Shown here one piece after another: positions 490 through 46,700 of a stretch of DNA of 64,000 bases (positions are counted from its first letter, which is position 1; the number at the start of each line of letters is the position of its first letter). The position numbers were made by a program, and so were the translations under genes. This DNA comes from Branchiostoma floridae (Eukaryota > Chordata > Leptocardii > Amphioxiformes > Branchiostomatidae). The stretch covers positions 11,881,668-11,945,667 of the forward strand of contig NC_049990.1 in assembly GCF_000003815.2 (NCBI RefSeq), read 5' to 3'. The notes beneath the pieces are model-generated. The model was not told where the DNA came from, searched no databases, and was given only the letters and a program-made list of their open reading frames with translations.

Positions 490-3400
490 GTTGATGCTCA
501 CAACATCGTACCGTGCTGGGAGACCTCCGACAAGCAGGAGCACAGAGCGTACATCATCCGCGGGAAAATCATGGACAAACTGCCGACCTACCTCACCGAG
601 TTTCCTCCTGTGTGCAAGCACCCCCATCCTTCTCCATCAAAACCTCAGGTATAAGATTATAAAGTTTAACATGAAGTTAACTAAGACTGAATGGATGAAT
701 GGATGTTGAAATGAATAGTGTGAAGAAATGGCAGTTTGCTTGGCCAAATTCTTGGAAACAATTCAGGTTCATGCCTTTTCTCCCAACTCTAAATGACCAA
801 TGACAATGACCCCCCCCCCCCCCCCCCCCTTTAAAATGACCAGGGACCAAATGAATAACCTTAATGCTACTTCACCTTTATCCTGGACAACATGTCAAAG
901 GGGGGGGGTATCAAATTGCAGTATTTTCAAAATGAGTTTGAAAGCACCCTCCATTGAATTGACATTCTTCGTTTCATGTTTTTATGACAAATATAGCTGT
1001 TTCAATTGTAATTCAAAAGGATGATATTAAGGACATGTGAGCACTCCTCCTTGTAATGTATTACAAAATTCAGCCTTAAAGATGAAAGCCTTTAGAATTC
1101 CCATTCCAAATACCCTGTTTTCAGAAATAACAGATATAGGTTACCCCACGGAAAAAGATGATCAAGCATCATAGCTTTGTGGGGTTTCAAAACTTAATTC
1201 ACTGAATGTTAGTTATGATTTGTTTTGTTTAAACGTGTGTCTAAAATGTGAACAAACTTCCCACAGCCAGTAGACTGGGTTTCCACCAAGGCCAGCCTGG
1301 AGGTGGACAGGACCGTTCCCGAGGTAACCTGGGCCATGCCCGGCTCCGTGGGGGGTCTGCGTCAGCTGGAGCTGTTCTGTAAGGAGAGACTGGAGGTGTA
1401 CTCTGCAGACAGGAACAAACCAGACCACAAGGCACAGAGCGACCTGTCTCCATGGTACCATTTTGGTAAGTGTTGATGTTGGGATGTCCCTGTAGCTAAA
1501 GTGGTAGCGACCACAAGGCATAAAGCGACCTGTCACCATGGTACCATTTTGGTAAGTTTTTAATTTGAGATGTCTCTGTAGCTAAAGTGGTGGTGACCAC
1601 AAGGCACAGAGTGACCTGTCACCATGGTACCATTTTGGTAAGTTTTTAATTTGAGATGTCTCTGTAGCTAAAGTGGTGGTGACCACAAGGCACAGAGCGA
1701 CCTGTCACCATGGTACCATTTTGGTAAGTTTTTAATTTGAGATGTCCCTGTAGCTAAAGTGGTGGTGACCACAAGGCACAGAGTGACCTGTCGCCATGGT
1801 ACCATTTTGGTAAGTTTTAATGGAGGGATGTCCCTGTACTAGTAGCTAAGCTGGTTAAATGACCACAAGGCACAGAGTGACCTGTCACCATGGTACCATT
1901 TTGGTAAGTTTTGATGTTAGGATGTCCCTGTAGCTAAACTGGTAGCGACCACAAGGCACAGAGCGACCTGTCACCATGGTAGCATTTTGGTAAGTTTTGA
2001 TGTTAGGATGTCCCTGTAGCTAAAGTGGTAGTGACCACAAGGCACAGAGCGACCTGTCACCATGGTACCATTTTGGTAAGTTTTGATGTTAGGATGTCCC
2101 TGTAGCTAAAGTGGTAGTGACCACAAGGCACAGAGCGACCTGTCACCATGGTACCATTTTGGTAAGTTTTGATGTTAGGATGTCCCTGTAGCTAAACTAG
2201 TAGCAACCACAAGGCACAGAGCGACCTGTCTCCATGGTACCATTTTGGTAAGTTTCAATGTTAGGATGTCCATATACATTAGGTCATGTTGACTTGATTA
2301 TATGGATGACATCCTTTGAAAACCCCCAAACTGATGGGATTTACATAGTGTCTGTCTTCTCTGTGTAGACCAGTGGAAGATTAGCAAAATTCCAATGTCA
2401 GCAAAACCGTAATTACAGTACACAAAGGGCCTTGAGTACAAAACAATTTTTTCTTGTTGGACTGGTCTAGAAAAAACAGACCTGAAAAAAATCAATGGAC
2501 ATGATTTTGAACAGATAAGAAAATAAATAGATTATACTGGCTGGCATTCACGCATTTTGAGGCTTACCAGTCCACATGTAACAAAAGTGATTTAGAGTAG
2601 AGTTGATAGGCATTGTTACCAAGTTTCTACTGTCAAACTTGGTCCAAGTTAACAGAGACAGTTAGTGTTGTTTACATGAAGATAGGATTTTTAAAATGCC
2701 AGTGGAAGTCCGATACTCCACCAAAGTAGACCATTGTTTTCAGTTCGCCATTCACAAGTTTTCACAGATAATCAGATACTGAACCCTGACTCACACTATT
2801 TCTCCCCTACAGGCCATGTATCAGTACAGAGATCTATCCTGACTGTACAACAGTTCCAGACTGAGCACAGTCAGTCAGTGGAGAAGTACATCGATGAAGC
2901 CGTCATCTGGAGAGAGATGGCAGAAAACTCTGCCTTCTACAACCCTGACAGATATGATTCACTTCTAGGTAAGAAATCCACCAAACTTTATCTTTTGAAA
3001 GAAGAAAGAATAATTAGTGTTTTAAGTAAAAATCTGATGTATTTTATGATTTTGTATCTTTTGTTTGTTGCATGTGTTTTGTGAAAAACTTATTTTGGTT
3101 ATTCTGTTTCCTATTTCAGAATTGATTGATAGTTGTAAGAGTTATCTGACAGGTGTTGAATTGAAATTGAAAGTAAAGTCTAAAGAACAGTCTAAACAAA
3201 CCCATTGTCAAACAAACTTGTTGCCTTTAGTACATGTTACTGCCATTATATGTAAGATGTAGTTTGTCAGTTTTGTAGTTAGGAACCACAAGTCATGAAA
3301 CAATTGATGGATTGTCTTGATTTATAATTCACAAAATAAATGTGACTAAGTAATTATTTCTCAACAAAAAAAAATGATTATTTGCATGAACCTTCCCAGG

Positions 3401-5052
3401 TGCACCTGACTGGGCCCAGAAGACCTTACGTGATCACGCAGGTGACAAGAGGCAGTACATCTACAGCCGCGAGCAGCTGGAACAGGCCAGGACACACGAC
3501 GACCTCTGGAACGCTGCTCAGGTATCAAAACAGTCTCCTCAACTTCATTTGCAGGATCGTTTTTTTCTTGTAATCACTTTTTGGAGAATTTTATATAGAA
3601 TAGACAGAAGGCAATCAAAGCCCAAATATTTGTACCAGAAAACTTAATACCCATTTGTAATGATTTCTTAGTTGAACATTTTTTGTTTATTGTCACATCA
3701 ATTGTTACATGCAAGTTTGCCATCACATTCCACCCTTTTTTGAAGGACAAAGTCATATTTGTTGTGCAATTATAAACTGAGGGCATTGTTGGTATTCTTA
3801 GTAGTGCATATGCTGTAGAAAATCCAGCTGTCTTAAGCTCCTTTTCAGTGGTTGGTTCTGTCCCAGTCATACTGTAATCATCATACAAGCACAATAGTTA
3901 CCCTGCATTTATTCCATCTTAATAATTTTCTACTGAAGATCCAGATGGTCCGAGAAGGAAAGATGCACGGGTTCCTGCGGATGTACTGGGCTAAGATGAT
4001 TCTGGAGTGGACACCCTCTCCTGAAGTTGCTCTAAAGGAAGCCATCTACCTCAATGACAAGTATAACCTGGATGGAAGGGACCCAAATGGATATGCCGGT
4101 AAATTTTGAAGAATTAGATTTAGTGCATGCTATTGCCTATTTTGATGCATTTTTGCTTTCATCATCATCATCAACGGTCAACGTGCTTGCACACGACGGG
4201 GTAACATACCCTTTTGCTAGTTGATTACAAGACAGTGATGCACCAAGTCTTGATTTTTGCTATTGTCATGAATAATTTGGACGAATTGTTGTTAATAGGA
4301 AAAACTATATCTTTCCATGTCTAAAAGAAATGTTTACTTAAAACATAAATAATGTTTCATATTCTAAGGCTTTATAAAGAATCAATTCATTACAAATTGT
4401 AATGTACAGTCAAACCTGTCTATAGCGGCCACTCAAGGGACCGGACAAATGTGGCCACTATAGACAGGTGGCCTCTGTATAGAGGTGGCAACTTGTAGAT
4501 AAAATACCCAAGGGACCGACAAAAAGTGGCCACTATGGGCAGGTGGCCCCTCTGTAGAGGTGGCCCCTAATACAGGTTTGACTGTACAGTCAAACCTGTC
4601 TATAGCGGCCACTCAAGGGACCGGACAAATGTGGCCACTATAGACAGGTGGCCTCTGTATAGAGGTGGCAACTTGTAGATAAAATACCCAAGGGACCGAC
4701 AAAAAGTGGCCACTATGGTCAGGTGGCCCCTCTGTAGAGGTGGCCCCTAATACAGGTTTGACTGTATGTGAATTGATAAAGATTTCTAATATATTGCTGT
4801 CTTTTGCATTTTGCTGTCTTACATTCAACATTCTTCATCATTGATCTCAAAAATTTGATATCTTCTTTTTATAGATTTGATGAATGGATTTTTTGTTTCG
4901 TAGGTTGCTTGTGGGCCATAGGCGGGCTCCATGATCGCGACTTTCAAGAGCGCCCCATCTATGGAAAAATCCGCTTCATGACGTACTACGCATCCAAGCG
5001 CAAGTTTGACGTACCTGGCTTTGTGAAGAGATATGGAGCTAAGGCTTACTAA
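490..5052 (+). CDS. phr: Class II CPD photolyase, 3' six exons (5' part outside window)
   Basis: Deoxyribodipyrimidine photolyase uses FADH- and light to split cyclobutane pyrimidine dimers in DNA. Six exons join in frame with GT-AG borders: 490-648, 1267-1465, 2813-2968, 3400-3521, 3939-4098 and 4904-5052, stop TAA at 5050-5052, giving about 315 residues. The first exon opens with [10 protein letters not shown], a class II hallmark of the FAD-binding half. Later exons carry [11 protein letters not shown], the [18 protein letters not shown] block, and GCLWAIGG followed by [15 protein letters not shown], all matching the C-terminal catalytic domain of class II enzymes rather than class I photolyases or cryptochromes. 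Family members are roughly 450-530 residues, so the antenna-side N-terminal half must lie upstream. The exon-2 donor is the first of ten tandem copies (see the 86-bp repeat). The gene is convergent with the nucleotidase gene. Gene symbol is generic. Confidence 0.95.
649..1266. other. Photolyase intron with homopolymer runs
   Basis: Intron between the first two visible exons. It holds a C-run of about 20 bases (810-830) and a G-run (900-908). Nothing else was recognised. Confidence 0.7.
1423..2265 (+). repeat. 86-bp minisatellite spanning the photolyase exon-2/intron junction
   Basis: Each unit contains the last 43 or so exon bases (beginning GACCACAAGGCACAGAG), the donor TTTTG|GTAAG and about 43 intron bases. 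GT dinucleotides of the donors fall at 1466, 1552, 1638, 1724, 1810, 1904, 1990, 2076, 2162 and 2248: period 86 except one 94-bp unit holding a small insertion. The first copy is the real exon end; the other nine lie in the intron. One copy has TAC changed to TAG in the exon-like part (near 1979). Each intron part also contains CCTGTAG or CTCTGTAG, a possible weak acceptor. Reading on past the genuine donor meets an in-frame TAG inside the first unit. Confidence 0.95.
4406..4585. mobile_element. 180-bp MITE, copy 1 of a head-to-tail pair
   Basis: The element begins ACAGTCAAACCTGTCTATAG and ends ACAGGTTTGACTGT, giving 14-bp terminal inverted repeats, with internal TGGCCACTAT motifs. It is non-coding and lies in the last photolyase intron. 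The left flank reads AATGT, and ATGT follows the second copy, so a 4-bp target duplication around the pair is possible. Confidence 0.8.
4586..4765. mobile_element. 180-bp MITE, copy 2 of a head-to-tail pair
   Basis: This copy directly abuts copy 1 with no spacer and has the same 14-bp terminal inverted repeats. I see a single difference from copy 1 (GGGCAGG versus GGTCAGG). The near identity shows a recent tandem duplication rather than two old insertions. Confidence 0.8.
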
Positions 5053-17600: not shown

Positions 17601-20600
17601 CTTTATGATGTAGGTACAGTGATCAAATGATTTTTTTGTTAGATCAATTTTTCCTTCAGATTACTAAAAATTGTCTTCCCCTTTTTGCATATTATTGATT
17701 CATAGTTAGGATAAACCTGTTCTCCAACTAGATATTTCTTTTGCAAATCAATTCATAGCTAGGATATAAAAACTTCTCTCTGGCAAGATTTCTCCTGTAT
17801 CACAGACGAAAGACATCAGATGGTGTCTGAAGAGTCTGACCGTTTCCAAAATCATATCCAGTTGATTCCAATGAGTACCTGCTTTTGACGTATCTTATTA
17901 CCTGGATGTCTAACCTTCATCCTGGGTGTCTAACCTTAGACACTAATACTGTAACTTTAATACTCAGAATGCATGTATTTTTCTGTGGAAATAACTTTTA
18001 TGTCTTTTAGGGTCAGGCAACAATGGCACAAATGTTTACAAAGAAGGCTACAAAGGAGCCAGAGACAAGTGAAACAGTGAAAACAGAGAATGGAGGAAAG
18101 GAAAACAAGGATAGCAAGGTAAGAAATTACTCATAATGGATGGACAATTTTGTACTAATAGTATGTATAAAAGTATCTAGAAATGCACAACATTATCCTA
18201 ATCTTCAGGTATCTTCAGGTTTTATGTTTAGTGGGACAAGCCTTAAAAAGAGGCAAAACGTATGTTTGGTTTGACTGAAAGACCTGTGGTCAATGTTGAA
18301 TAATTATCCAAAGACATTTCAATTCAAAGATTTTTGATTTTGTGAGGTAGAATCTTTAACATGTTTTTAAACTTGTCTTTAACTTGTTTTGAAATTCCTT
18401 ACACTGCAAATTTTTATTTTCAAAGTTTCGCTATTGTACTACAGAGTCAATGCAACTCCAAACTTAAAACTTTCTTCCACGTTCTACTGCAAAATTAAGT
18501 CCCAGGAAAATAACTTAATGCACAGTACATGTACTTAAATGCTGTCAAAAGGGCAATGGTTGGAACCAAAAAGTTTTTTTTTTTCACTACAAGAATAAGA
18601 AGATCAATAGAAATGTTACAGTTACAGTTCATTTTTCTGATATTTTGTGTCTTGTTTCTTCATTGGCTCTTCAGAATGTACCTGCCAGTGGAAAACCCAA
18701 ACCTAAAATGGGAGGAATGATGGCATTCATCAATAAGAACCCTACAGGTAAGGAAAACACTATATTTAAATCTTTTACAAACTTGTTCATAAAACATTCA
18801 TTTATTTCATGTTCTTTAGATATACTGTATATACATAATATGATTCTTAACTTGTTGTATTTTTCTAGAACTACATGTATCATAGAGTAGAATTTGTTAT
18901 CACCAAGCACAGTAGGGGTATCTTAGCAGGATAGTTTTAAAGAGCAGATGTGCAAATCAAACTTAGGTGTGACAGTTAGGTCGTTCAGTGTAATATAACC
19001 AGCTGCTACCATGCCGCGTGCCTGTGAAGCTGGTGTGTTACACCGAAGGGCAGTAAGTACTGGCTATATTAGTATATAGATACAGATATACTGTCCTAAG
19101 ATTTTGAAATGGCAAAGTTGCATTGTTTTCTTATATGAATTGGACAGTGTTGAAATACAATTTATGGAAGTAAGGAACACAATTAGTTATTGTTATAGTA
19201 AGCAAGACTATTTACCAGATTTTGGTAATCTTTGTCTTTCAGTTAAATCTAGTGACTCAAACAAAGAATTGAGTAAACCATCTGAACAGAAAAACGGAAA
19301 ACAAGACAAAAAGGTAAAGGAAGAAGAGAGCTCCAAGAAAGAAACAACCAAGAAAACCAACAAAGCATCAGCAACAGTGAAAGAAAAAGAGGATGCAAGG
19401 AAAAGGTACGAAACTCAATGTTTTAACATGTTTGTATGATGTGTTATAGGGGTGGGTACCGGTACAGAAAATTCAAGTTCAGATATGGTTCCAGAGGATC
19501 AGGTCCTGGTCGGGACCTATTAGTAATTGTTTGTGAAAACTTGTGAATGGGAGATACTCAAAACAATGGTCCATTTTTCAAGAAATGAATGTATTTTGGT
19601 GGAGTATCCGGTGTCTTAAAATTTTGCCTTCAAGTTAACTCTGTAACTTTGAGTTTGACTTAAAACACATTAAATTTTGTAGAAATTACTATAAACTCTA
19701 CTTCTCTTATTATGTGTAAGAGTACTAAGTAGCATTTAATGACTTAATAGTTCATTTGCTTAATGTTGAATAAACCAGAGTAAGCTTTGGGTCTTGCAAA
19801 CATGTTAACTATCTTGTTTACTTATCTTCTGTACAGTGGTGCCAAGTCAAAGAAAATCAAAGACATGTCATCATCAGATGAAGGTATAACGTCTGTCAAA
19901 TGTTCTTATCACTTTTACAACTAAGGAACTTAACGTACGTGTAGTCTTTATCTAATTTCTTTGTGGTCAAATGCTTTACAAATTTAGATTTTTCTAAGCT
20001 CTTTTTCTGTATTGAAGATGAAGATCTGGCCCCTAAGAAGAAAAAAAGGAGAAGAATACAGCAGCCAGAGTCTTCTAGTAGCAGTGAGGAAGGTATGTCA
20101 TCACTTGTTGTGTTTCTGCAAGTGACAGATTATAGGCTACAGTATATAGTCCAATCCTGACTGTCCAGCACAATTATAAGTTCAACCAATGATAGCATGG
20201 CAGTTATGAGTTCAACCAATGAGAGAGGTGCTGCATGTTTGTGAAATGTTATAACGTTTATATTTTTATTTTGCATTTCTGTATTTTGACAGGTGGATAG
20301 GACTATGGGCTTGGACAATTAATGTGATTTTGTTTGAATTGGTCACTTGATATTGGCCATTTCTCTGTTTGTTACATATTATTATATCTTCCCAGTATTT
20401 TCCATGCATTTGAGTATCTTGCTGTCTTAAGTCTTACCAGATTCTTTGTATTCCTACAGAAATGTCTGAAGATGAGATGGTGATCCCACCAACCCCACCC
20501 CCAGAGCCTCGTGCCCTCTCCCCCTCCCCTCCCCCGTCCCCTGAACCCTCCCCACCCCCCTCCCCACAACCGGACACCAAGTCCAGCAACAAGACCACAA

Positions 20601-21625
20601 AGACCACCAACGGTGGTGGTGGTGGAAAGAGGAGGAAACACAAGAGAATCCTCAAGTCAAAACAGTTTGTGAACGAAGATGGCTTCATGGGTAAGTACAT
20701 TGTGTTTTTAAGTTGAAAATGCTTTAAAAAAATACCACACAGGTAGTACATTGTTTTTAGTCTTTACATTGAAACTCCTCAGAAAGAAACACACACAGGA
20801 TCTAGGTAGTACATGGTTTTTAGTTTTTACGTTGAAAATCATTAGGAAAAGACCACAGGTTTTGAATGGAAATGTATTGAAGTCAAGCTTGTAAAAGTGA
20901 ACACCTCTTCATAATGACCACCTGGCCAATTGTGTACACTTTATTTCAGCGCCATAGATGACTTTTCCCAATGACATAAACATTAAGAACCCTGTCTATA
21001 TTGTTTCCACATAGTCCAGATTTTACTGGTCCTCTGAGTGGTCTTCATGAGCAGTTTTGGCTCTAGCTTATTAGTGCATATGTTCAACCCATGGTAGTGA
21101 AACATAACTACAAACTGAAAGTACAGAAGTTTGAAATAATCATAGTTTCGGTTCACACCTATTGTTTACATAATTATTGATGCAATATTTTGTTAAAATT
21201 ACAAAGTAAACTATTTCATCACAAGTCTACACAATGTGTGTGAAATACAATCATCATAAATGTTTGGGGTACTTTTAAAAGTTATACCATTTGAGACTTA
21301 ATATGTCATTCATAGCTACAGATGATAGCTTAACTTCAGTGCTCATTGAAAAAAAATAAGACCTTGCATTGTTAAAAGAGCTAAGGCATGTGGAAGGCCG
21401 TTCTGAAATTTAATCACTGTTTTCTCTGTTTCAGTAACGGAGAAAGTTTGGGAGAGTGAGTCGACAGATGCCTCAGATGTAGAGGCAGATACAGTCAAAC
21501 CAGCTGCAGTACCTGCCAAAACCAGTAGTCAGACCAAGCAAGCTTCTCCGGAGAAAAAGAAAGCCTCACCGAAATCCACCAAACAAGCTGGTATCATGAG
21601 CTTCTTCAAAAAGAAGGCTGCTTGA
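14664..21625 (+). CDS. POLD3: DNA polymerase delta subunit 3 (p66)
   Basis: Accessory subunit of replicative DNA polymerase delta in the nucleus; it bridges the B subunit and PCNA. Thirteen exons join in phase: 14664-14735, 15016-15071, 15775-15871, 16026-16065, 16656-16785, 17319-17535, 18011-18118, 18675-18747, 19243-19405, 19837-19883, 20018-20092, 20460-20690 and 21435-21625, 499 residues (human 466). The N-terminal winged-helix region shows YLENLDEFV, LNVHVNQAKQMLFSFVE, HVTYLVNG and VHVYSVQKADLKDS. The middle is low-complexity and Lys/Ser/Glu-rich. Near the C terminus come KKKRRRIQQPESSSSSEE, a Pro-rich stretch and KRRKHKRILKSKQFV, as in vertebrate POLD3. It ends with QAGIMSFF (about 487-494), a canonical PCNA-interacting box. 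Start context AAAATGG is good. It is convergent with the chordin-like gene. Confidence 0.96.
16925..17240. repeat. SINE-like interspersed repeat in POLD3 intron 5
   Basis: The segment contains TTTAACGTGCTCATGGTGTG, CACCTGAGTAAAGTGAGGAA, CCAAGGGCACAACGTCC, TTCAAACCCAAGGACCTTCG and finally CTTAACCACTACGACA. A diverged relative lies at 13646-13900 and a partial one at 124-350. Confidence 0.55.
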
Positions 21626-24495
21626 AGCTTGTCTTTGTCATACGATACAATGAAATTTATGTCAAAACAGTCATTAAATGTTCTATTTTGGGGAATATAG
21701 ATTAACAGTATAGAAGAGAAATAGATTACTGAAATCCATTGTGAAAGTCAGGTCGGTTCTTTTGACACAATGTGATCATGAAATCTGTGATTTCTAAAAA
21801 AAAGATTGGAAGATTTAGGGATGGATGCAGGGTTGTAGCCAGCCTGAAATCATTTTCAGTCCCCTTGATTTTGAATGGGAATCCTATCGAGCACCAAAGG
21901 CATGGTGTGACGTTGTGCGTCATTTCTAGGGGGTCTGGGTCCCAGAAAATTTTTAAATCAAGACCCTCTGAAACACTTTTTCCTGCATATTGAGGTGCAA
22001 AATTTGCTCGTAGACTAAGCTGTTCAATGGCATCTGTTTTGGTGAAGAAGAACACATGGGTTTCAGTTTTTTTAGTATCTTTACATATCAATTTGTCTGT
22101 CCCAGGGGACGGAATGGGGAAAACTTTTTTCAGTCCCCAGCTGCAAAATTCCTTCAAAGGACTGAAGGACAGGTGCTGGCTACAACCCTGGATGGATGAA
22201 TATTGAGCTGAAATTTCACCGCTCAGATAAATGTATTAAGTGTTCTTTTTTCATCACTAGAACATCATATTCAATGTTGTCTATTTATCTATAATTTCAG
22301 GGGGTTTTCTAACAATTTGTACTAACAAGGGCTGGTTGTGATTACAGAAAGAAAAGGTGTACATAACGAAAAACAGATTTGGTGAGGTATAAGTCAGGTA
22401 GTAAAGTCAAACAAAGTTATATAAATCATTTATCTATACATAGTTTTGTCAGAAAGCTAACAATTAGTCATATTACTCAAGAGGCTGTATTGAATTCAAA
22501 GAAAAGACACTTGTTTTGGGACTGTAGTAATGTTTTTGGTCCATCATTTCGTTCAAATTACCTAGATGGAATCGTGCCATGTTGTTTGTCCTTTTATAAA
22601 GTACCATCTACATGTAACAATTTAGATTTAATTAGTCTTTGGTATAATGATTATCTCTGCATATATCTATTGCTGTACATTAGAAACAGAGCCTCCTAAT
22701 ATCCTGTGTTGATTAAACCATGAAGCACTCATATCTCATGATCATATTCCTTTTGTCATAAGATTTCAATTCTAGAACCTGCACCATTAAATTACAATTC
22801 TATCATACTTGAATACCCCAGTTACATATTGACATGATTCATCCAACATTAGCATTGATTTTACAACTGCAAGTGGTAAATTCCACCTTTGCTTTCCAGC
22901 TTCTCTTGCTAACCTCCTTTATATATTCTTTACTTTAATTGCCATCAAGTCTCACACAACCATTCTTGGGAGTTTGTTGCTCTCTTCCCTATCTACACTT
23001 TACTCAAAGAAACAACCACTGATTGACAGGCATCAGAAACAGATAATGATACATGTACATGAAATTCTTTATTTCTGCAGATTATAACTTATTTGGGCAG
23101 GGATACCATAGAAAATGTTAAAGATTTTGTTGTACAAATAAAGGTTCAGAAAGCAGAGAACACTGAAAATAGCTACTCGATACTTAAAATTCAGTTTTCC
23201 TTTGTTATTCTGTGAAGATGTAAGTATTAATATAAAAAGATAAGTTGGAATATCACAATATGCATCCTTAGTCTGATTACGTAGTGTTACTTTACAAACT
23301 TATATTGTACATTGTGTGACTTGCAGTGGGCCCTTAGATTACCAGTACTAAATTTAAAATCACAGATATATGGTTTTAATGCTTTTGTACATCTTGATAA
23401 TCAAAACTTCTAGCATGCATTAATTTAGTTTCTACATGTATATTTTTAATATTGATGACAATTTAATAATTTACATTCCTTTAACACATTTAAGCAAATC
23501 AATATATACAGACATACATACATAACAACTGAATCTAAATACAATACATCACACCCTGTATTCTCCTGCTTTAAAAATGTTGACAAATAATATGTTGGAC
23601 ATACCCAATATCATATTTAGTAACATAAATAGTAAAAGGTACAATGTATATGAAGTATCAAGTCTTTTGGAAAGAAGTTTCTTCAAAATTGAATGTTTCA
23701 GAATTTTCATAGTTTCTACTTTTGCAACACTGCTTAAATTGGGTATATATTGTTTAGTTGTTTCTTTAAAAGCTGTGTCATGATATTGCAGGGCCATGTG
23801 CCATATACATGTACTGGTTTTCTACAAGTGTTTTTTACAAAGCTACAAGTTAGATGAATTATTTGCATAATTTATACTGTTAAAAGCATCAGAGCTTAAG
23901 CTGCCTGGTTAGTTTAAGTTAAAAAACATGTCAATGCTTTTTTTTTACAATGCCACTAAAACATACAAATGCAGAAATATCTACAGTCATCATATTTTGT
24001 AAATCACTAAGTGGTCAACAATGTTGGATCATTACTGTTGCTTAAGACAATTCTGTAAACTTGGACAATGGCAACTTTCATGGCTTTTGCCCCAAATACA
24101 GTATGTTTAATTCAATAGCCATGACAGACAGTGTTGGGGACATCTCCTATATGCCATCCTCCTATGCCCGGTCCCCAACAGCACTAGCTGACTGCCAGTT
24201 GGGGCCCTGCTGTCTGGAGGCCCACTAGCGGTTACTGTGAGCGTCGCCACAAACCAGCTGTCAGCTAATCAGAGAATAGGCCTTTCTTGGCCTTTTTGTT
24301 TTCAAAAGGGATCTCGCAAAGGCCTGATGGGGCACTGATTGGCTGAATCCCATATAAGGGTAAGCTCATTAATATTTATAAGCAGGGCGGTCAGTAACTG
24401 ATCTGAGTGCTCCAGACAGCAGAGGTGACCACAAGGAGTTTCGACATGACTGGTCCCTCTCCGTAGGAGAATGCTATATGCACACGTACATGTAT
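21626..24495. other. Convergent region between POLD3 and the chordin-like gene
   Basis: Both 3' UTRs should be here. ATTAAA at 21673-21678 is a candidate POLD3 polyadenylation signal. TTTATT at 23068-23073 reads AATAAA on the minus strand and could end the chordin-like transcript. A hAT MITE occupies 21828-22190. The 24120-24470 segment has promoter-like boxes (see findings). No gene was recognised. Confidence 0.5.
21828..22190. mobile_element. Non-autonomous hAT transposon (363 bp)
   Basis: The ends read CAGGGTTGTAGCCAGC and GCTGGCTACAACCCTG, a 16-bp terminal inverted repeat with the CAG...CTG ends usual in hAT elements. The 8-bp target duplication GATGGATG is perfect (21820-21827 and 22191-22198). 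There is no transposase. The insertion lies about 200 bp past the POLD3 stop codon. Confidence 0.88.
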
Positions 24496-27400
24496 TTAGT
24501 TCTTGCACTTGTTTCTCTTGGAAGTGTCTTTAAGTTTGAGGACTTTGAAGAGGTTGCCTATCCTCTCCTTACAGTTGTTAGTGCACATGTCCTGGAGGTT
24601 AGTCTCACGCCGCTTCAGTTTCCTCACTCGACCTAAATGTTGAAGAAAAACAACAAGATTATGTTTTAAAGAAAACTATACAATATGGCATGTCATAATG
24701 AAGATAACGAGTTATGTTCATTATGCACAATGCTTTACATTTATAGATTATATTTTCTTTGATAGACTCAAAAGTTACATTGGTATAAGCACAGAATAGT
24801 TATAAACAAAAGACAACATACTTAAATAAGAGCTATCCAGAAATATGATAAGATGAGGGGGAAATTCCTTAATATACACATATATATAAGTTAACTACAC
24901 TCAGTATGAGGCAAGAGAACACTAAAAAATCTAAGGATATATCACTTATTGAAGTGAAGTTTTTAACAAGTGTGGATGTCAACTTATCAAAAACATTGAT
25001 ATTCTGGTATATATAATTGTACATATATATCATTGTGTTGAATAGAAACAATTGAATAATACACACTTTCAGCTGTAGCACCAAGCAGTTTATACTGGCC
25101 CTGTTTGTCATTCTTCTGGATTTCTTCAAACTCCTTTGTTGTCAGCCTCACAATCTTAAAGATCCGGATGATTCCTTGAATTTTAAGTAAAAAATCAGAA
25201 GAACACAAATTTAGGCACAATGTTTTTGTACTTATGTATTAAGAGTTATTCAGTGGAGATGCTGCTGCTAAACTGCAACCTAGCATTTAACATATACAGT
25301 AATTCTACAAACAGGTACACATGTATGTCTTTTTCTACTTCATGTTAGCAATGTAAACATTTCTCTGCCTTGTTACCTCACAACCAATGCATATGTAGTG
25401 TCAGAAATGTACATCAGTATGCTAAAGGCTAAATTCCATACAGTTTATCCATGTTGTATAACCCACCTTGTATAACCTCCCACACATGTAGTTCCACCAT
25501 AACCCACCTTGTATAACCTCCCACACATGTAGTTTCACCATTACCCAACTTGTATAACCTCCCACACATGTAGTTCCACCATAACCCACCTTGTATAACC
25601 TCCCACACATGTAGTTCCACCATAACCCACCTTGTATAACCTCCCACACATGTAGTTCCACCATAACCCACCTTGTATAACCTCCCACACATGTAGTTCC
25701 ACCATAACCCACCTTGTATAACCTCCCACACATGTAGTTCCACCATAACCCACCTTGTATAATCTCCCACACATAGTTCCACCATAATCCACCGTGTATA
25801 ACCTCCCACACATGTAGTTCCACCATTACCCACCTTGTATAACCTCCCACACATGTAGTTCCACCATAACCCACCTTGTATAACCTCCCACACATGTAGT
25901 TCCACCATAACCCACCTTGTATAACCTCCCACACATGTAGTTCCACCATAACCCACCTTGTATAACCTCCCACACATGTAGTTCCACCATAACCCACCTT
26001 GTATAACCTCCCACACATGTAGTTCCACCATAACCCACCTTGTATAACCTCCCACACATGTAGTTCCACCATAACCCACCTTGTATAACCTCCCACACAT
26101 GTAGTTCCACCATAACCCACCTTGTATAACCTCCCACACATGTAGTTCCACCATAACCCACCTTGTATAACCTCCCACACATGAAGTTCCACCATCTCCT
26201 GTTTGACGTTCTCCAGTGCGTACTTGTGCGACTGTGTGGCGTGTTCAGGCTGAGGCTGGTACGAGTACACCAGATGCGTTTCTCTTCTCTTCAGGCATGG
26301 TTTCGTCCCTTGTCTCTTCGTGCCCTTCTTGTTGTCTTTTCCACCCGTTTTTGAAGGAATTTCCAAGATGGCTTGTTCCGATGCTTCTCCGTTGAGAATT
26401 ATTGGCCCTTCTGTCGTCATGAGTGTTTCATCGTCACCTTCCTCTATGGAGGTACAGAAAACATTCAGCTTATGATATAACTGTTCATAGCATCATAGCA
26501 TTGGTATAGCAATGTATGTCGTCTTGTAGTGCTAATCTTACTCAGTGACTAAGTCGCTAACAAAGTGTAAAAATTCATATATGCATGTTATAGTAAATGA
26601 TATACAAGTAACAGGGGAGTCATATTAATGATAGTCCATACATAATGTAATACATTGTGCTATGCTATTTCCAAAGAAAATAATTTCAGCACACTATATT
26701 GTGTACGTACATGTAGTTGAACTGTGATGGGAAATAATGAAATTATATGCAAAGGGCTTAATAAGGGAAGACAATAAGAAACCACGAAAAACATAAGGTG
26801 TGCATTTTTAGATTGCATTCTTTCACCCTATGTTGTGTCTGAAGCATATCAAAGGTGAATGGACAAAATATAGGTCTTATTTCAGTTTATAATTAATAAA
26901 AAGAGAAATATTGAAAAGTTGATCTCACCAACACAGGCACTGCAGCATTTGCCTGGTACTTTCCTGGGGTTTGGACAGGGTAAGTCTGAGTCAGGAGGGC
27001 AGGAGACTCTGTTACAGGTGGTCTTACTGTCCTGGAGAGGGGAGGGAGAAAACAAACATTACATGATTTGACCTAATCTCCAAGCAGATCCTACAATGGC
27101 ATAAGATAATATCAAACTGGCCAAGGAGTGTAGTCAGCCAAGAGGTGTCCATTTCCCCGGTAGTGAAACACACTCCTAAGCCAGCTTCGCTCCTCTGCCA
27201 GCTTTTGATACTATCTTATGCTACCATAGGATCTGCTTGGAAATTAGATTGGACCACCAGAAAGCTATTAGTATATGGTCTTCCCTCAGAACATATGCTT
27301 GAAGTAAGAAGGTCCTGGAAGAAGAAGAAGAAAAGACATCATCCTTATGATTAGGCCACTCTAATGTAGTGTCTTGGTTGTTCTCAGATTTACCCTCTTG

Positions 27401-30400
27401 ATTTTGATAAATGTGAGATCTATTCTGCAAACAGATGTTGATAGGGGCATTTTAGAATTTATTTACAATATATACAATCTTCCCAACTTTGTCAAGAGAG
27501 AAGAGCTCACTTCTGCAATCAGTTCACCATCGTCTCCAGAATCTCTCCATACTTCTATGTTTGATCTTCTCTCCAATATCTGCTTGGAGATAACGTTGTA
27601 TAAGAGGAACACTTACAGACGGGAGCACTATGAGAATCTGTGGTTCATATTGTTAGATTTCTTTCTTTAACTTTTCTATTTCAAGTTATTAAACTTTGCT
27701 GTTTTGACACTACACGAAAACTTGAATATTCGGTCGTTTTTGGGGTTGCATATGTCCCGTGAAACCTGGTGTATCCGGGGCATGTGCAGTCATATCCTGT
27801 TATGACAAGCGCGGGTCCTGCATATTACCGCTTATGCCTGCACATCCGGTAATTAGACATGTATGGGGATATGCGGCCCCTGCTCACATCTCGTGTCTTG
27901 AGTAATGCCAAACAAGAGACCATCTTGTGTGTGAATTGATAGACGTAATGATGCTTTGTCATAAGAATAGGTTTGAGTAAGATTGGTAAAGGACATCCGC
28001 TTTACATAAAAGTACTCTCCAAGCGGATGTTTATTGACTTGTCTGGCATTTTCGGTCAACAAAACTCACAAACGCCTGATATAAAGGAATACATTGTTTT
28101 ACAAGAACAAAGAAAGGCCTACGCACGAATGGCGCGTATCATCGTTTTCCAATGAATTGTTATCTAGAACGAACACTAAAAATAACTTTGAGGGCATCGT
28201 ATACCAGCGTTTGGTATTATTATATTCTCAAGCTTCGGTTTTACGTTTTTAGCTAATCAACTAATTTTACTTTTTTTTTAAACTTTTGACACAAAAGAAA
28301 ACATGGCTTACCCACGCTCAATTTTAATATTCGTTTTTTTTTTTTTTTGCTGCGGCAGTTTGTTGCCTAGATTGAACTACACGAAATGGACATTCTAAGT
28401 AAAATCTAACACGTTTGATGATAACATTCTCCACCATTCTATGGTGGGGTAGTCATTTTACGCCCTAAGCTTATCAATGAAACGGCCGCTTCAGTCTAAA
28501 GACCAATGTTGTGCTTTTGAAACAAAAGAAAACATGGCGTATATGATATACCCACGCTCGCATTGGAAGCCTTCATTCGTTTTTATCCTTGTGGATAATG
28601 CTTGTTGCAACAACAATATGTTTGTTACCAGACTGATGTATGAAATCATTGACAATTACAGTAACACATTTTCACCTAGTTCCTTGTGGGTATTGTTTGA
28701 CTGTGAACTGGCCATGTGACAAAAGCTGAATTTAGCTACAGTGGACCTCCCGACCTATTGTGTCTGTCTGTATGCAAATACTCATCAGAACTAGCCACTT
28801 GTATTTCACACGGCATGTAGGTGTTTGAAAATAAGGACCAATCAACACACATGTCAACATTTTCAAATTTTACAGTTGGCATTTCAGAGCTAGACTTCTT
28901 TCTGTGAGGTTGTGCTTTTACGCAACGGATCCCGATAGCTGGATATCTGCATGCACGGCAGACAACGTCAGTGAACACTGAGGGATTTAGAATGATACGA
29001 CCTCGAGACTAAACAACATCTTGCCGCGTGGAATTTGAACTGCCTACGCTGGAAGGATTGGATTCTGCTTGGAGTTTTAAACAACTGTAATTTTATAGCT
29101 AGTATCCAGCCTTACGCACGGGCAGGCGCTGTAGAGTACGGCGGGGTACGACTGACATGCCCGGTTGTGATTTTGCGGACGGTTTGAGACTACGTCACAC
29201 GTCGCCATGTAGGGCTGGCTTAAAAGTTGCTGCCGGAGGCCGTGGTTGGCTCGGGTGATTTCTGCTTCGGCCCCGTGTACAGTGGAGGCTGCCCACCCGT
29301 GTCGCGATGGATCAATGGTTACCACAAATCTTCAAGTTCACGTTTAGAAATTTTGCCGCAGCTGTGCTCCTGACTAACAAAAGTCTGTGCAGAAGACGGG
29401 TGGACAACAGAATGTATGATAGCGGGAATGCAGAACTTCACAAGACGTAAAAGGAGCATCATTCCTAGCACATAATATATGGAGGAAATCGTCAGGACAG
29501 TCTACTGTCCAGAAATACTTTGAAAAAATAAAGAAAATTCATTCACCATTCAGAAAGAATAAAAGCAAAATAAACACACTACAGGGAGGGGGGATCCTAG
29601 GTAGGGCAGGGTAGTAAAACAAAGCTGCTTTCAATGACAAAGGGTGCTCTAGTCGAGGCCTGGGTGAGATAATTAGGTGATAATTAGGTGCTAACAAGGG
29701 TGCATATCCCGAATAGGCAGGCATATGCAGGAAATTTGGGTCGGATGAGCGGACATGGGCGGGACATGCACCGGGATGGCCAGGCACATATGCAGGCATT
29801 ATCGGCCTCCATATGTCCCGCACACTAATAGTTGTGAATCTCCGGGTCATATGCAGGTCCGTCTATACCAAGTGTGCGGACGGCATATACCCGTTATCGG
29901 CCACATATTTTGAATATCTGGGTTTATATGCAGGAGTATTCGACCCAGATATTCGCTTTTTCGTGTAGTGTGAGTGATGGCTGGAAGATGCGTATAACAA
30001 TGCTTGGGCAGCATTACAAGCAAGAATATGATACTTACATTACAGTTACAGATGACGCATTTCATTTGACCAAAAGGGACCAAGTTTGGATGCCACTTCT
30101 CTCCATGGGAGTACGTCTGTCCACTTGATACACAAACTAGAACAACAAAATTACTAAAAGTTATTCATGTAATATATGTAATCTGCATAATATTCAACCC
30201 TCAAGTTTCTTATGTTTCAAATTCAATGTATGAAATGTATTCATGAATGTTCAAAATTTGCAAAGTTCCATTGCGATTTTCTCATTCTTTTCTAAGCAAA
30301 GAACGTCTTACTTCTTCCTATTCTGTTAGTGTTGTTGTTAGCCAAGATGATGTTGACTCGAGTCTGAGAGCCTGCAACGCCTTTCAGTTCCGGTAGAGGG

Positions 30401-33400
30401 TGCTCGAAAGTGGCCTCTGGATCGTTCTGGATCCTCTGCTCCTGCGTGTCGTCGTACTCTTCTACTTCGTACGCCTCTTCGTCTCTGATCGGAGTTTTGG
30501 ACTTTTCTGCAAGAGAGTTGGATGTGATATTTCCAACTAGACGTTGGAAGGAAATATCGTTCGTTACTGTAGAAAGAGGAAAAGAAAGGAGGCGAGGAAG
30601 AAAAGTACCAAAACAAAATTTTAAAATCTTCTGAGCTAAAGATTGTCAAAGATGTGAAAAGGATCGAAACTATGCCTGTGGTATATCAAAGACAAAGAAA
30701 ACATCTCACTTGGACATTGAAGACAGCAGGAGTCGGCTAGTTGAATCGGGTTGGGACATTGTGGCACAGTGCAAGTCTTCAGTGCACAGAAAACGTTCCC
30801 TTCCTGTATTAAAGCAAAGAAATCAGTGAATAAAAGAAACATAAAATCGGTTTAACATAGAATCAAGGAATGACAAGACGTTCACAGCAATAGTTAACAG
30901 TATGCAAGTGTAGACTGACGCATCTTTAGGATGTGAAATAACGCTGCAGTAGTACATTGGAAATTGCAGAAACGCACATACAGAGAAGCTCAAAGCACTA
31001 GTCTCTTCCAGGCTGACTACGCTGACTACTAGTATTATAGGGAGAATAATTTGCCATGGGAGTTTTGCTACCAGAGATGCGGAGAATCATGGACCTAAGC
31101 ACCGGGAAACATGGACCTAAGCACCGGGAAACATGGACCTAAGCACCGGGAAACATGGACCTAAGCACCGGGAAACATGGACCTAAACGTGGACCAATTT
31201 CCCGATTTTTTTTTGCAGACTTCTACGATCCTCGCAGCCCCATAGGAAGGCATGGTGAAGGCTACCAAAGCACCACTTCACTCACTACGATGCATTGTTC
31301 TTACCGAACAAGAACAGTGCACACACTGGCTCTCCGTCTGTAGCATGAAGACTCCGTCGCTACGGAAGCTCTCCCCGTGTTGGTACGTGCGACCCTTGAA
31401 CAAACACTGCTGGCCCTGATACGGTGGCGTGGTCGGAGCGGGCGTAGTTACTTCTGTAGGGGTTTAACATACATGCATATGTTTAGTACGGACATTTGAT
31501 TATCTAAGATATAATACTTTCAAAGTACTACCAACATTTACAGAACCAAAATTTAGTTTCCCCTATCAAAAAAAACCCGTTCTACAATCTATCATATTGT
31601 ACAGTAAAGTTTTGCTTTTACGAAGTACCAGGTAAAGGTGATAAAGCTCGTAATAAACTATGTAAAAATATTATTGAGGACTCTCTGTGTATACAGTATC
31701 TGCATTTTCAATGGCTAAAATGGCCAATAACTATAAGCTTCGAAATACATGATACGACTTAAGATATGCATGTAAGATATCATACTACTTCCATACCTGG
31801 ACACCGTCTGCAGCATTCCCCCGGCAGGTACACGGGGTTATCACAGGTCACTTTAGGACAGTCGTCTGACAGACAGCTGACGGTACCATCCTGGGGGGTG
31901 GGTGATAACAGATAATAACTACATAGTAACAGTACTTAATTTCAATTATCAGGTAGATTGAGACAAGATAGCTCAAGAAAACTAGATAAGATACAATGGA
32001 TGTGTCAGTTTCCTTTCTGGAGATTTGCCATACCCTCTTTACATTTCCGTCTGAATGACAATCTGAAAACAAGTTTAAACAGGTATCGCTATTCCCAACA
32101 TACTTAATTGTCATTAAGGGATTTGGACTGGGTACGTTTTGGATTGTCGACTAGCTTGAGAGTTTTCTTTTTCTTTTACATTAGAAAAAAGATTCCTAAT
32201 TACAACATATTTGATTTTACAACATTATATTTGAATGAATGAGTACAGGTCACGAGAAGACATGTTGAAGAAATACACTTTACAGAATAAAGATAAAACT
32301 AACGTTAGATAAATTCAACTTTTTCTTGCTTTTCAGATATGGTGGAGACAAAAGAATATATATATTTTTTATGATCAATGGTTTGTCTAGTTTCATTAGG
32401 AATATGAATTTTTCTACAGAACAATAGAGGGATGGATTTTGTATACATGCTTATACAATTAATTTTTCTCTTCTCTATACAAACTACATTCTAGTACAAA
32501 ATGACATTCGTTCTCTCTTTTATTTAACTTACATATATTATATATACCAATCGAAATTCCAGTTTTTGTTGGCAAATAAAGCACAAAACTGTACAGAAAC
32601 AACAACAAAAACTGTGATTTACCTCTTTGCAGATGCACGTGATGCAATAGACGTAGCCAATGGGAAGTAAGAACGGGTGCCACGTGTCCCCGGCTACGTA
32701 CTCCTTCCCATCAAACCGACACACCCTCCGGATGACGTCATCTGAGGGCAGACATTAGTGTCAGGGACATTTCGTAAAAACCGCCACATTTTCAAACACA
32801 AAATAATAATTAGTATTGTTTTGTAAACATACCTTTCCTGTGCATCTGTTTTTTGTCATCAACTGCCAACGTACCAAGACATTCTTAAGATTGTCTTGTG
32901 TTTGTCTTGCAATATTCGTCTTAAATAGAAAGGTTGTCGTATATGTAGACAGTCGGTTAGAAATGTCATAGCCTCAAGAATAATCGTGCGAGGATAGTTA
33001 TTGTACTACGTCATATGTAGCTTTGATCGCGTAGAACTTTGTACAATAATGCAATGTGAATAGCTCAAAGTGTTACTTTTGTCTCGTGTCTACACTATAT
33101 AAACTATGTATAAGCTACGAGCTCTTTTACACAGTGAAATACTTTTAACAAGGGCATGATGTTTCTTAAGTTGTGAAAACTAAATTTTCCAGGTGCGCTG
33201 TTTTACGCACGTGGTCATATACGGTAGTTTTAGTACTCAATTCCGTCTGTCTATATAGGATAATCGTAATCTTTCTATGTCTGGTAAATATTTTGCACTT
33301 GTGATGATTCCTACTATAATCGTCACTTATACTAGTTTATACTAGTTTGTATGTCGATACGTACACTAGTTCGTAGGACCTAATGTCACAGGACATAGCC

Positions 33401-43762: not shown

Positions 43763-46700
43763 CTAGGATAACGTAGCAGGCACACCGTCTAGTTTCCCAT
43801 TTTCGAGCTCTGCATTTTCTGGCGTCTTCCTGATATTAAAGACAGGAGAAAAGGCTAGTTAAGAAACTAGTAATCAATAGACTATTAATGGCAAAAAAAT
43901 CAATAAATGTTTTGTTACATTTAGCAAGTCATGTTTTTAATACATGCCAATTTTACATTATTTCTACCAATAAGAACAGATCAAATCAAGTGACGGTATT
44001 TGTCCACGTGTGTATGTGTTCGATATTTTCTTCTACTACTAAGTTCTAGTGGATAACAATTACGTATACCCCGACGTATTCAAAGTTTCTTCATTTTTCC
44101 AAAATTAAAGGTGGTATCTCACCGCACTTGGGACACCAGTGCGACACTGCGGGGTTCGTTCACTGCGGCACTGTTGTGTTATTTTCGCCGATTTTTTTAA
44201 TACTTTAGATATTGCGTAATACGTAAAAGTATGACTTTAATAGTATAAAAATACAAACACGTAAGAAAATTCGTTCTTTATCTCTGAAATTCAATTAGTA
44301 ATCTTTCGAAACCCGCAGTGCCGCACAGGTGTCCCAAGTGCAGTGAGATACCACCTTTAATGTTCTGTTGTGTAGACTGGGCCCCTGGAGAAACGGCGTC
44401 TTCCAAACTTATAGCCATGTAGATACATAACTTACTTTCCCAATTGCTCGGCCTCCTCGATGGTCTGCATGAGCGGTTTGCCCATGGTGTCCGGTAGTAA
44501 CAAGGCCAGTGCTCCGGCCACCAGGGACATGACGCCGAAGATGAGCAGAGGTAGCGGGCTCCACAGATCGCCGATCATGATGGCGAACGGAGCGATGATT
44601 CCTGCGACCCGGGCGCTCATGGACCCCACACCAACCGCAACGCTCCTGCAGAAACGAGTTGTAGAACGTTAATTGGGAGAATCACTTAGAAAATCTACCC
44701 CATTGATGGACCGGGACAAGGAGGTGTAGAAACTTAGCCGCGTTTGGGATTGTGTTCTCGCCACAAAAGCGCCACCTACACCGGCTACACGTAGCGGCGA
44801 GAAGCAGCACTTTTCGCGTTTTGTGGATTTCTCAGTAAATCTGTCAGTGCATTTTCCTGCACGCCCTCTTGTCCAACTTTGTACCCGGGTCAAGCCAACC
44901 TTCCCATACAGTCAGCCTGCGGGACCAAATTTGACTCGCCACCGGTCAACCTTCCCATCCTGCCAGTCTCCGGTTACTTATGACACCTTCTTCCACCTCA
45001 CTTCCTGTCATTCTACAGTATGCAAATAACACATACCAAGACAAACAAGCAACCTGACTGCTGTAGGTACAAACGAGTTCCACGATGACGCACAGGTGTA
45101 TGGAGTTCTTGTGGCCTTATCAAAAGCTCCACCTACCGGATCACTGTGGGGTACAGTTCAGCAGTGTAGTTGTAGATGACCGAAAATGAGATGGAGATTC
45201 CGAACTTGCCAAGCATCGCCAAGGTCGTGCGAACAGGGATCAAATCTGTATAAAAGAAGAGAAATGGTGCTATTAAAAGAGTGCTGACGTAAAAAAAGAA
45301 ATTGTTGTAAAAGTATTGCATGTTTGGAGGTTCATTTCCTTCTTGATTTCATTACTTCATTTCGTTGATATTTATAAATGTCGGCCATCTTGTCCTGACG
45401 TCATTAAGATCACATCTAAACGTTAACATCGAGAATATCTCTTACCTTTCCTAGAGAGTGGCACCGCAACGGTACAAAAGCAACCGATGCCACCAACCAC
45501 CATAGACCCGGACAGAGTCTTCTGTCTGCCGATCCTCTCCATCAGGATAACGGTCACTACGTAGGCCGGAAGTTCCACGGCACCGGAAATGAACGAGTTG
45601 ATGTAATCATCGCCTCCCAGGTTGGAGGTGTTGAGAGATAGTCCGTAGTACACCAAGCTATTCACGAACCTATTTAGGTAAAAAGAATGACACAAAATAA
45701 AGCTAAATAAGACGGAAGTATCGCGAAAAGAGGGGTGTACAAACTTAGCCACGTTCTCGCCGCAAAACATTAGGTGGTCAACATCCTCTCATAGAAGAAA
45801 CTTGCCAGCCAATCACGTTTCATGTTTACCGTAGACAGCGACGTGATTGGCCAGCAACTTTTCCTCCAACAATCAACACAATCTGATTGTCTGACGACTT
45901 GCCAGCGCTGCATTGATCTGATGGGAAGCACGGACCGTGCATGTATGCCGGGGTCCTTATAATTACTTGACATACTGTATACAAGCGACTGGCCTGGCAT
46001 GAGAGGATGGTGAAAAATAAAATGTTCAGCAAATACGTTAATAGCTTACCAGTTAAAGCAAACGTTTAGAGTCCTTTTCCGTAGATTAGGAGTTCGCACC
46101 AGGTCCAAAAGGCTATAACTTCGGTGACTGTGTTGGTCCTCGCTCTTCGTGGCCTGAATAGAGAAAATATAGCAATATTGTTCATACAACTCAATAAAGG
46201 GAATACTTCATCTGGTGCAATTGTAACGCAATGGTTTATCATGCACATATAGCTAGTAGCTGAATTGTACTCTACCGGTACCCACTAGTTAGGCTAATAC
46301 AATGTACCACATTTCCACAAAGGGACCCGACCGGGCTAGCCTGGGTACCATCCAGAAAGAAGTTCGCTCCGGCGTTCATTTTATACTATATACAGTCGCT
46401 TCTAGCTCTGACATTCATTATACACTATATACAGTCGCCATCGGGCTGCGGATTCGCCCCCCGTATCGACGCCACGTATTTCTGAAAACGCGTTCAGGCT
46501 GTACAGAGCAGGCGCCTGCTCTGTACATCCTGAACGCGTTTTCAGAAATACGTGGCGGACGTGGCCTCCCTAAAAAACGTACGGACAAATTGCACGTACG
46601 GCGGGTTGTGCCCTTTTTTAAATTTTTTTTTATTAATCTTTCAGGGTATTCCCTACAGTTTTGATAAAACTGATTTCCAAGGGAGCCTTAGCTTTAGGGA

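Follow-up and report, generated by a model that had tools for sequence, protein, structure and literature searches.

An 18-Unit Minisatellite Across an Exon/Intron Boundary of a Probable Chordin-Like Gene in the Lancelet Branchiostoma floridae

Introduction

Minisatellites of an exon/intron boundary are known as mirages, and have been published for the lancelet genes Adh3, troponin C (TnC), globins and PGBD5 (PMC3087553, PMC3902484). Although many copies within these arrays keep the AG/GT splice signals, splicing is reported to be undisturbed for the Adh, TnC and globin mirages (PMC3087553, PMC3902484); for PGBD5, undisturbed splicing was inferred by the authors (PMC3902484). Length instability is also mentioned for lancelet mirages in these two papers.

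The globin mirages BflGb6 and BflGb9 are likewise tandem duplications across an exon/intron boundary in a lancelet and, as described for them, AG/GT signals are kept in many units and both sides of an exon can be affected (PMC3087553). The BflGb6 mirage is reported to have units of 150–160 bp on the acceptor side, with 6 and 3 units in two haplotypes (PMC3087553), whereas the array described here has 18 units of 41 bp on the donor side. The mirage of Adh3, which is a different gene, likewise has short units (10–72 bp), and is cited for length instability, including somatic instability, with splicing undisturbed (Canestro et al. 2002, as cited in PMC3087553 and PMC3902484). The repeats reported for PGBD5 (60 and 108 bp) likewise abut or overlap splice sites, and an annotated exon inside them was omitted by the authors; the copies are fewer (2 and 3 in the scaffold used) and were called imperfect (PMC3902484). 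Duplication of a boundary could also seed new splice sites, as in intron gain by duplication of AG/GT proto-splice sites (cited in PMC3087553); in contrast, the copies described here lie inside an existing intron, and no new intron is seen.

The array that is the subject of this study lies in a window of 64 kb (the whole stretch of DNA that was analysed) from B. floridae, and is a new and real case of the known lancelet phenomenon, both clean and long. In the literature searched, which covered few subscription papers, mirages in a chordin-like or photolyase gene were not met, but may have been reported elsewhere. The near-identical donors behind one exon constitute a natural test of how a 5′ splice site is chosen among equals.

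The Host Gene and its Neighbourhood

The gene that holds the array is probably a Chordin-like gene, i.e., the assignment made in the original prediction, from which the numbering of the exons in Table 1 is also taken. When exons 9 and 10 are joined (26162 to 25174), their translation matches PF19548 (CHRDL_1_2_C) with 33 bits, the cut-off being 27, although only over positions 9–68 of the 120 in the profile. If exon 9 is instead read on into the array, the match is only 16.7 bits and falls below the cut-off. Joining the first donor to 25174 restores the domain, in agreement with the earlier view that the donor at 26162 is the genuine one. An in-frame isoform from donor 4 has PF19548 in two pieces and scores 37.8 bits, compared with 32.9 for donor 1; thus, the domain score alone cannot rank donor 1 over donor 4. 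A search of this genome and of the controls with the PF19548 profile gave no match, which we attribute to the distribution of the domain over several exons. Addition of the tentative terminal exon gave no longer match to PF19548.

Further upstream, open frames at 31278–31463, 30636–30851 and 29847–30164 hold partial von Willebrand C domains (PF00093; E 0.014, 0.014 and 0.0005, respectively), each below the curated cut-off. A 22-bp tandem repeat (31084–31186, 4.7 copies) adjoins a von Willebrand C open frame, and the best donor score in its unit is only 3.0.

The C-terminal part of POLD3 (DNA polymerase delta subunit 3, PF09507) is matched on the forward strand at 21407–21625 and 20414–20716, with 36 and 37.2 bits (cut-off 24.5), and these exons stand tail to tail with the Chordin-like gene. 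POLD3 is reported to be a neighbour of chordin-like2 in vertebrates and invertebrates, B. floridae being among the species named (2025; PMC12425909). Since POLD3 adjoins it, the gene is most likely lancelet chordin-like2. On the reverse strand, a match to the sugar transporter family (PF00083, 27.2 bits, cut-off 22.3) lies at 45423–45788.

Table 1. Positions of the features described; positions are those of the window, except for locus L007, which has its own numbering.
Feature	Position	Strand	Basis
Photolyase exon, donor TTTTG/GTAAGT	1267..1465	(+)	PDB 3umv match reaching exon end
Second mirage, 10 units of ~86 bp over photolyase exon end and donor	1423..2271	(+)	tandem repeats, alignment
Tentative terminal exon (DSWFVATLTVTASGPPD...)	24110..24264	(-)	by eye, unsupported
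Exon 10, 108 nt; 3′ end AAA/GTGTGT inferred	25067..25174	(-)	splice signals, domain match
Intron 9, 987 nt, holds the copies	25175..26161	(-)	splice signals
Mirage, 18 units of exon end, 5′ splice site and intron start	25460..26195	(-)	tandem repeats, alignment
Copies 2–18, intronic if first donor used	25460..26154	(-)	unit alignment
Copy 16, last exon-like base, GT lost	25549..25549	(-)	unit alignment
Copy 10, last exon-like base, weakened donor ACG/GTGGAT	25793..25793	(-)	donor scoring
Exon 9, 282 nt, ends at first donor AAG/GTGGGT	26162..26443	(-)	splice signals, frame
Stretch with probable further exons upstream in this gene (pieces of von Willebrand C domains)	29847..31463	(-)	PF00093, below cut-off
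Mirages of L007	1804-2630, 3004-3288, 3426-3586, about 3854-4068		both intron ends

Structure of the Array

The tandem repeat search returned 18 head-to-tail units (TRF score 1406), which is the number of copies originally counted. Seventeen of the units are 41 bp long, and copy 11 is 39 bp long. Alignment and splice signals bear out the proposed composition of the unit: 34 nt of the exon end, followed by 7 nt of the intron, which in most copies are GTGGGTT. There is no break between the coding exon and the first unit, and the other 17 units follow downstream, so that the genuine donor stands first with seventeen near-copies behind it, as predicted. However, the donors are not all alike: 16 of the 18 read AAG/GTGGGT, including 15 of the 17 extra ones, one is weakened (copy 10, 3.9 compared with 9.6 bits on a donor matrix) and one is lost (copy 16, AAG/TTGGGT). 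Thus, the array has the structure of a mirage, as its units span an exon/intron boundary and the splice signal is retained in most of them. A search of the 513-Mb genome, in which one candidate was scored, gave one matching place.

Compared with the consensus of copies 2–18, 12 of the 18 copies are identical, and copies 1, 9, 10, 11, 16 and 17 differ. Copy 1 is set apart from the others by a synonymous change (CTT/CTA), and the changes private to other copies include the weakened and broken donors and a 2-bp deletion. As the reported length of the PGBD5 array differed between lancelet assemblies (7 compared with 2 repeats, and 6 compared with 3; PMC3902484), the array, or its repeat number, might itself be a product of assembling a short unit. 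This is scarcely credible here, given that 6 of the 18 copies carry changes of their own; for PGBD5, the original sequence was reportedly confirmed by new sequence data (PMC3902484). A miscount of the identical copies 2–8 or 12–15 is possible.

Reading Frames and the Use of Distal Donors

The array was originally said to be open in all forward frames. Two frames are indeed open, whereas the third has three stops inside units; the frame of the exon does continue through the array, as stated at the time, and meets a stop at 25424–25422. The consensus unit is free of stops in all three forward frames, as are 2.2% of its dinucleotide shuffles, and one of these three frames is in any case coding in copy 1.

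Each step to the next donor would add 41 nt to the exon (39 nt at copy 11). The rule of one frame-keeping donor in three applies to copies 1, 4, 7 and 10 but not beyond, because copy 11, which lacks 2 bp, shifts the register; the frame-keeping donors are therefore 1, 4, 7, 10, 11, 14 and 17. The 15 intact extra donors comprise 5 that are in frame (4, 7, 11, 14 and 17) and 10 that shift the frame and lead to a stop in exon 10, 84 or 92 nt before its end. The incomplete domain suggests that there is a further exon and, if so, the frameshifted transcripts would be targets of nonsense-mediated decay.

It had been proposed that the array might serve splice choice or variation in protein length. Distal donors would then be used at some rate and the number of repeats would tune the Chordin-like output, with the in-frame donors inserting residues coded by the repeat and the remaining donors leading to nonsense-mediated decay. 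The 15 extra donors that are identical to the real one, the open frame of the exon and the similar predicted accessibility of the first and the other donors would all suit such a role. Nevertheless, it is unlikely: the Adh, TnC and globin mirages, which have the same architecture, are reportedly spliced normally (PMC3087553, PMC3902484), two thirds of the intact extra donors (10/15) run into the stop in exon 10, and, of the 17 extra donors, one is weakened and one lost. Moreover, in two other arrays described below (that of the photolyase exon and the first in L007), the exon frame is closed by a stop codon in the first unit or directly behind it; thus, an open frame is not a feature of this class of array. 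The functions proposed originally, splice choice or a U1 array, found no support here. If the donors did compete, the array would be a heritable dial, in which the number of repeats sets the level of full-length Chordin-like protein. This is improbable; were it true, in-frame inserts of at least 41 residues would occur rarely, and other donor mirages of this genome could act alike.

The preferred reading is that the first donor is the one normally taken by the spliceosome. The copies would then leave with the intron, so that the number of repeats could vary while the protein remained unchanged, and the mirage is probably without effect on the protein.

What Could Distinguish the First Donor

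The predicted fold of the array has a z of −3.06 against plain shuffles. RNA structure that masks the extra donors was rejected as a candidate, as an equally good fold was obtained for 27 of 200 tandem arrays built from shuffled units. Donor 1 is predicted to be unpaired with a mean probability of 0.35, compared with 0.24–0.51 for the other 17 donors; predicted structure does not set donor 1 apart, for or against. Purine-rich enhancers favouring the real exon were also rejected: the exon has 25 purine hexamers (248 nt counted) and the array 17 (695 nt), but a count of 25 is also reached by 28 of 300 exon shuffles, and the excess is largely due to base composition.

The likeliest reason why donor 1 would win is its position relative to the upstream acceptor. 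With distal donors, the exon would lengthen from 282 nt to as much as 977 nt. The shorter intron that distal donors leave (292 nt with the last donor compared with 987 nt with the first) argues the other way, as splicing by intron definition could favour the last donor. Since the sequence alone gives no reason for donor 1 to win, the case for its normal use comes from the conserved domain and from how other mirages are reported to behave.

Other Mirages in the Window and in the Genome

The window holds a second mirage, over the end of an exon that matches the deoxyribodipyrimidine photolyase of PDB 3umv (E 1.1e-5) and has no Pfam match up to E 1. The donors are intact in all 10 copies, and copy 2 has a TAA in the codon register of the exon.

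Mirages were also found elsewhere in the genome. Systematic placement of 20 loci of 10 kb gave one with mirages (L007); it has four arrays in a single gene, at both the 5′ and the 3′ end of two introns in succession, an arrangement not met in the literature searched (subscription papers were mostly outside it). The exons of L007 were placed by eye from open frames, splice signals and matching phases; the gene matched neither Pfam (up to E 1) nor NCBIfam (up to E 0.1). Five of the other systematically placed loci (L002, L005, L013, L015 and L018) hold donor-bearing arrays that lack a tie to an exon and were not confirmed as exon boundaries, L005 and L015 being partly masked. The array in L005 (2143–4107), a candidate only, has ~58 copies of a 34-bp unit with a donor-like motif and lies beside a masked stretch.

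At least 4 of 19 loci centred on exons (9 globin, 10 sugar transporter) hold such arrays, the remaining 15 having been judged from the table of tandem repeats alone. The globin locus L030 has a 158-bp acceptor array like that published for BflGb6. In L035, ~6 units of 103 bp (1614–2218) lie over the end and donor of a sugar-transporter exon. The overlapping loci L032 and L040 share an acceptor and exon start duplicated as a 136-bp unit in ~two copies (L032 1315–1571, i.e., L040 1642–1898). The family search matched both copies of this duplication. A further array in L035 (49–306) has a donor-like motif and no link to an exon. Mirages are therefore present in several genes beyond the published ones in the small sample examined, which, being partly chosen by family, only hints at their frequency and gives no estimate of it.

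Donor Motifs in Minisatellites

The 20 systematically placed loci yielded 51 arrays, of which 47 have a period of at least 20. Scored with a donor matrix at a threshold of 9, 6 of the 47 contain a donor motif, compared with a mean of 3.1 in shuffles (24 of 300 rounds as high) and of 2.1 in genomic segments (4 of 300 as high). At thresholds of 8, 9.5, 10 and 11, the shuffle rounds that were as high numbered 73, 43, 137 and 48 of 300, respectively. A stricter set of 26 arrays gave 4 at threshold 9, compared with 1.9 in shuffles (35/300) and 1.45 in genomic segments (17/300). The enrichment is weak, too weak to stand alone.

The recurrence of donor arrays in the genome, together with the run of consensus-like donors within one intron, could be read as an array that binds U1 snRNP in the nascent intron and thereby helps exon definition, transcription or protection from premature polyadenylation. 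This is very unlikely: arrays on the acceptor side exist (L007, L030 and L032), which U1 binding leaves unexplained, and copies with weakened or lost donors persist.

Variability of the Exonic and Intronic Parts of the Units

In the eight arrays that were compared, 49 of 350 exonic columns are variable, as are 78 of 237 intronic columns (CMH z −4.95, common odds ratio 0.35; since columns are not independent, the p-value is only a guide). The variable share is lower in the exonic part in all eight arrays; taken singly, three have p < 0.05, and in the globin array there is hardly any difference (13/94 exonic compared with 10/62 intronic). Columns with more than half gaps were omitted, and positions +1 to +6 of the donor or the AG of the acceptor were kept separate; the Chordin-like array is the exception, its seven intronic bases containing the donor. 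The rows dropped were the last photolyase copy, the first unit of the second L007 array (leaving 3 of 4) and the first L030 unit (leaving 4 of 5); in the first L007 array, two units share one row and the last row is incomplete. Lower variability of the exonic halves was not met in the literature searched, from which subscription papers were mostly absent.

This minisatellite was probably born by tandem duplication of the boundary itself, here 34 nt of exon and 7 nt of intron. Its turnover may proceed by unequal exchange or by conversion in which the functional copy in the exon takes part. If exchange includes the exon copy, variants that spread would have passed coding selection, whereas single copies could gather disabling changes. 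The distribution of variants is consistent with, rather than proof of, such exchange under the filter of coding selection: variants shared by copies or present in the functional copy are found in 15 of 350 exonic and 35 of 237 intronic columns (odds ratio 0.26). The exonic parts are poorer in private variants as well (34/350 compared with 43/237, odds ratio 0.49, p 0.004), which counts against it, as exchange alone does not predict this depletion. Edge copies inflate the intronic count of private variants, 8 of the 43 coming from one array of four copies (the fourth in L007).

The rarity of private variants in exonic parts, together with the intact donors in 10/10 photolyase copies, would also follow if selection acted on the copies themselves, as alternative exon ends, and conserved their exonic halves without exchange. 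This reading is unlikely, since copy 2 of the photolyase array has a stop codon, two Chordin-like donors are damaged and the depletion is stronger for shared variants. Damage in single copies (the two donors, the 2-bp deletion and the photolyase TAA) argues that the copies are not individually needed. The Chordin-like array is very probably a mirage; its first donor is probably the one normally used, and its copies may exchange with the exon. The lesser divergence of the exonic halves makes exchange between the exon and its intronic copies directly testable. In the photolyase array, inclusion of the last copy brings the variable columns to 5 of 42 exonic and 23 of 38 intronic.
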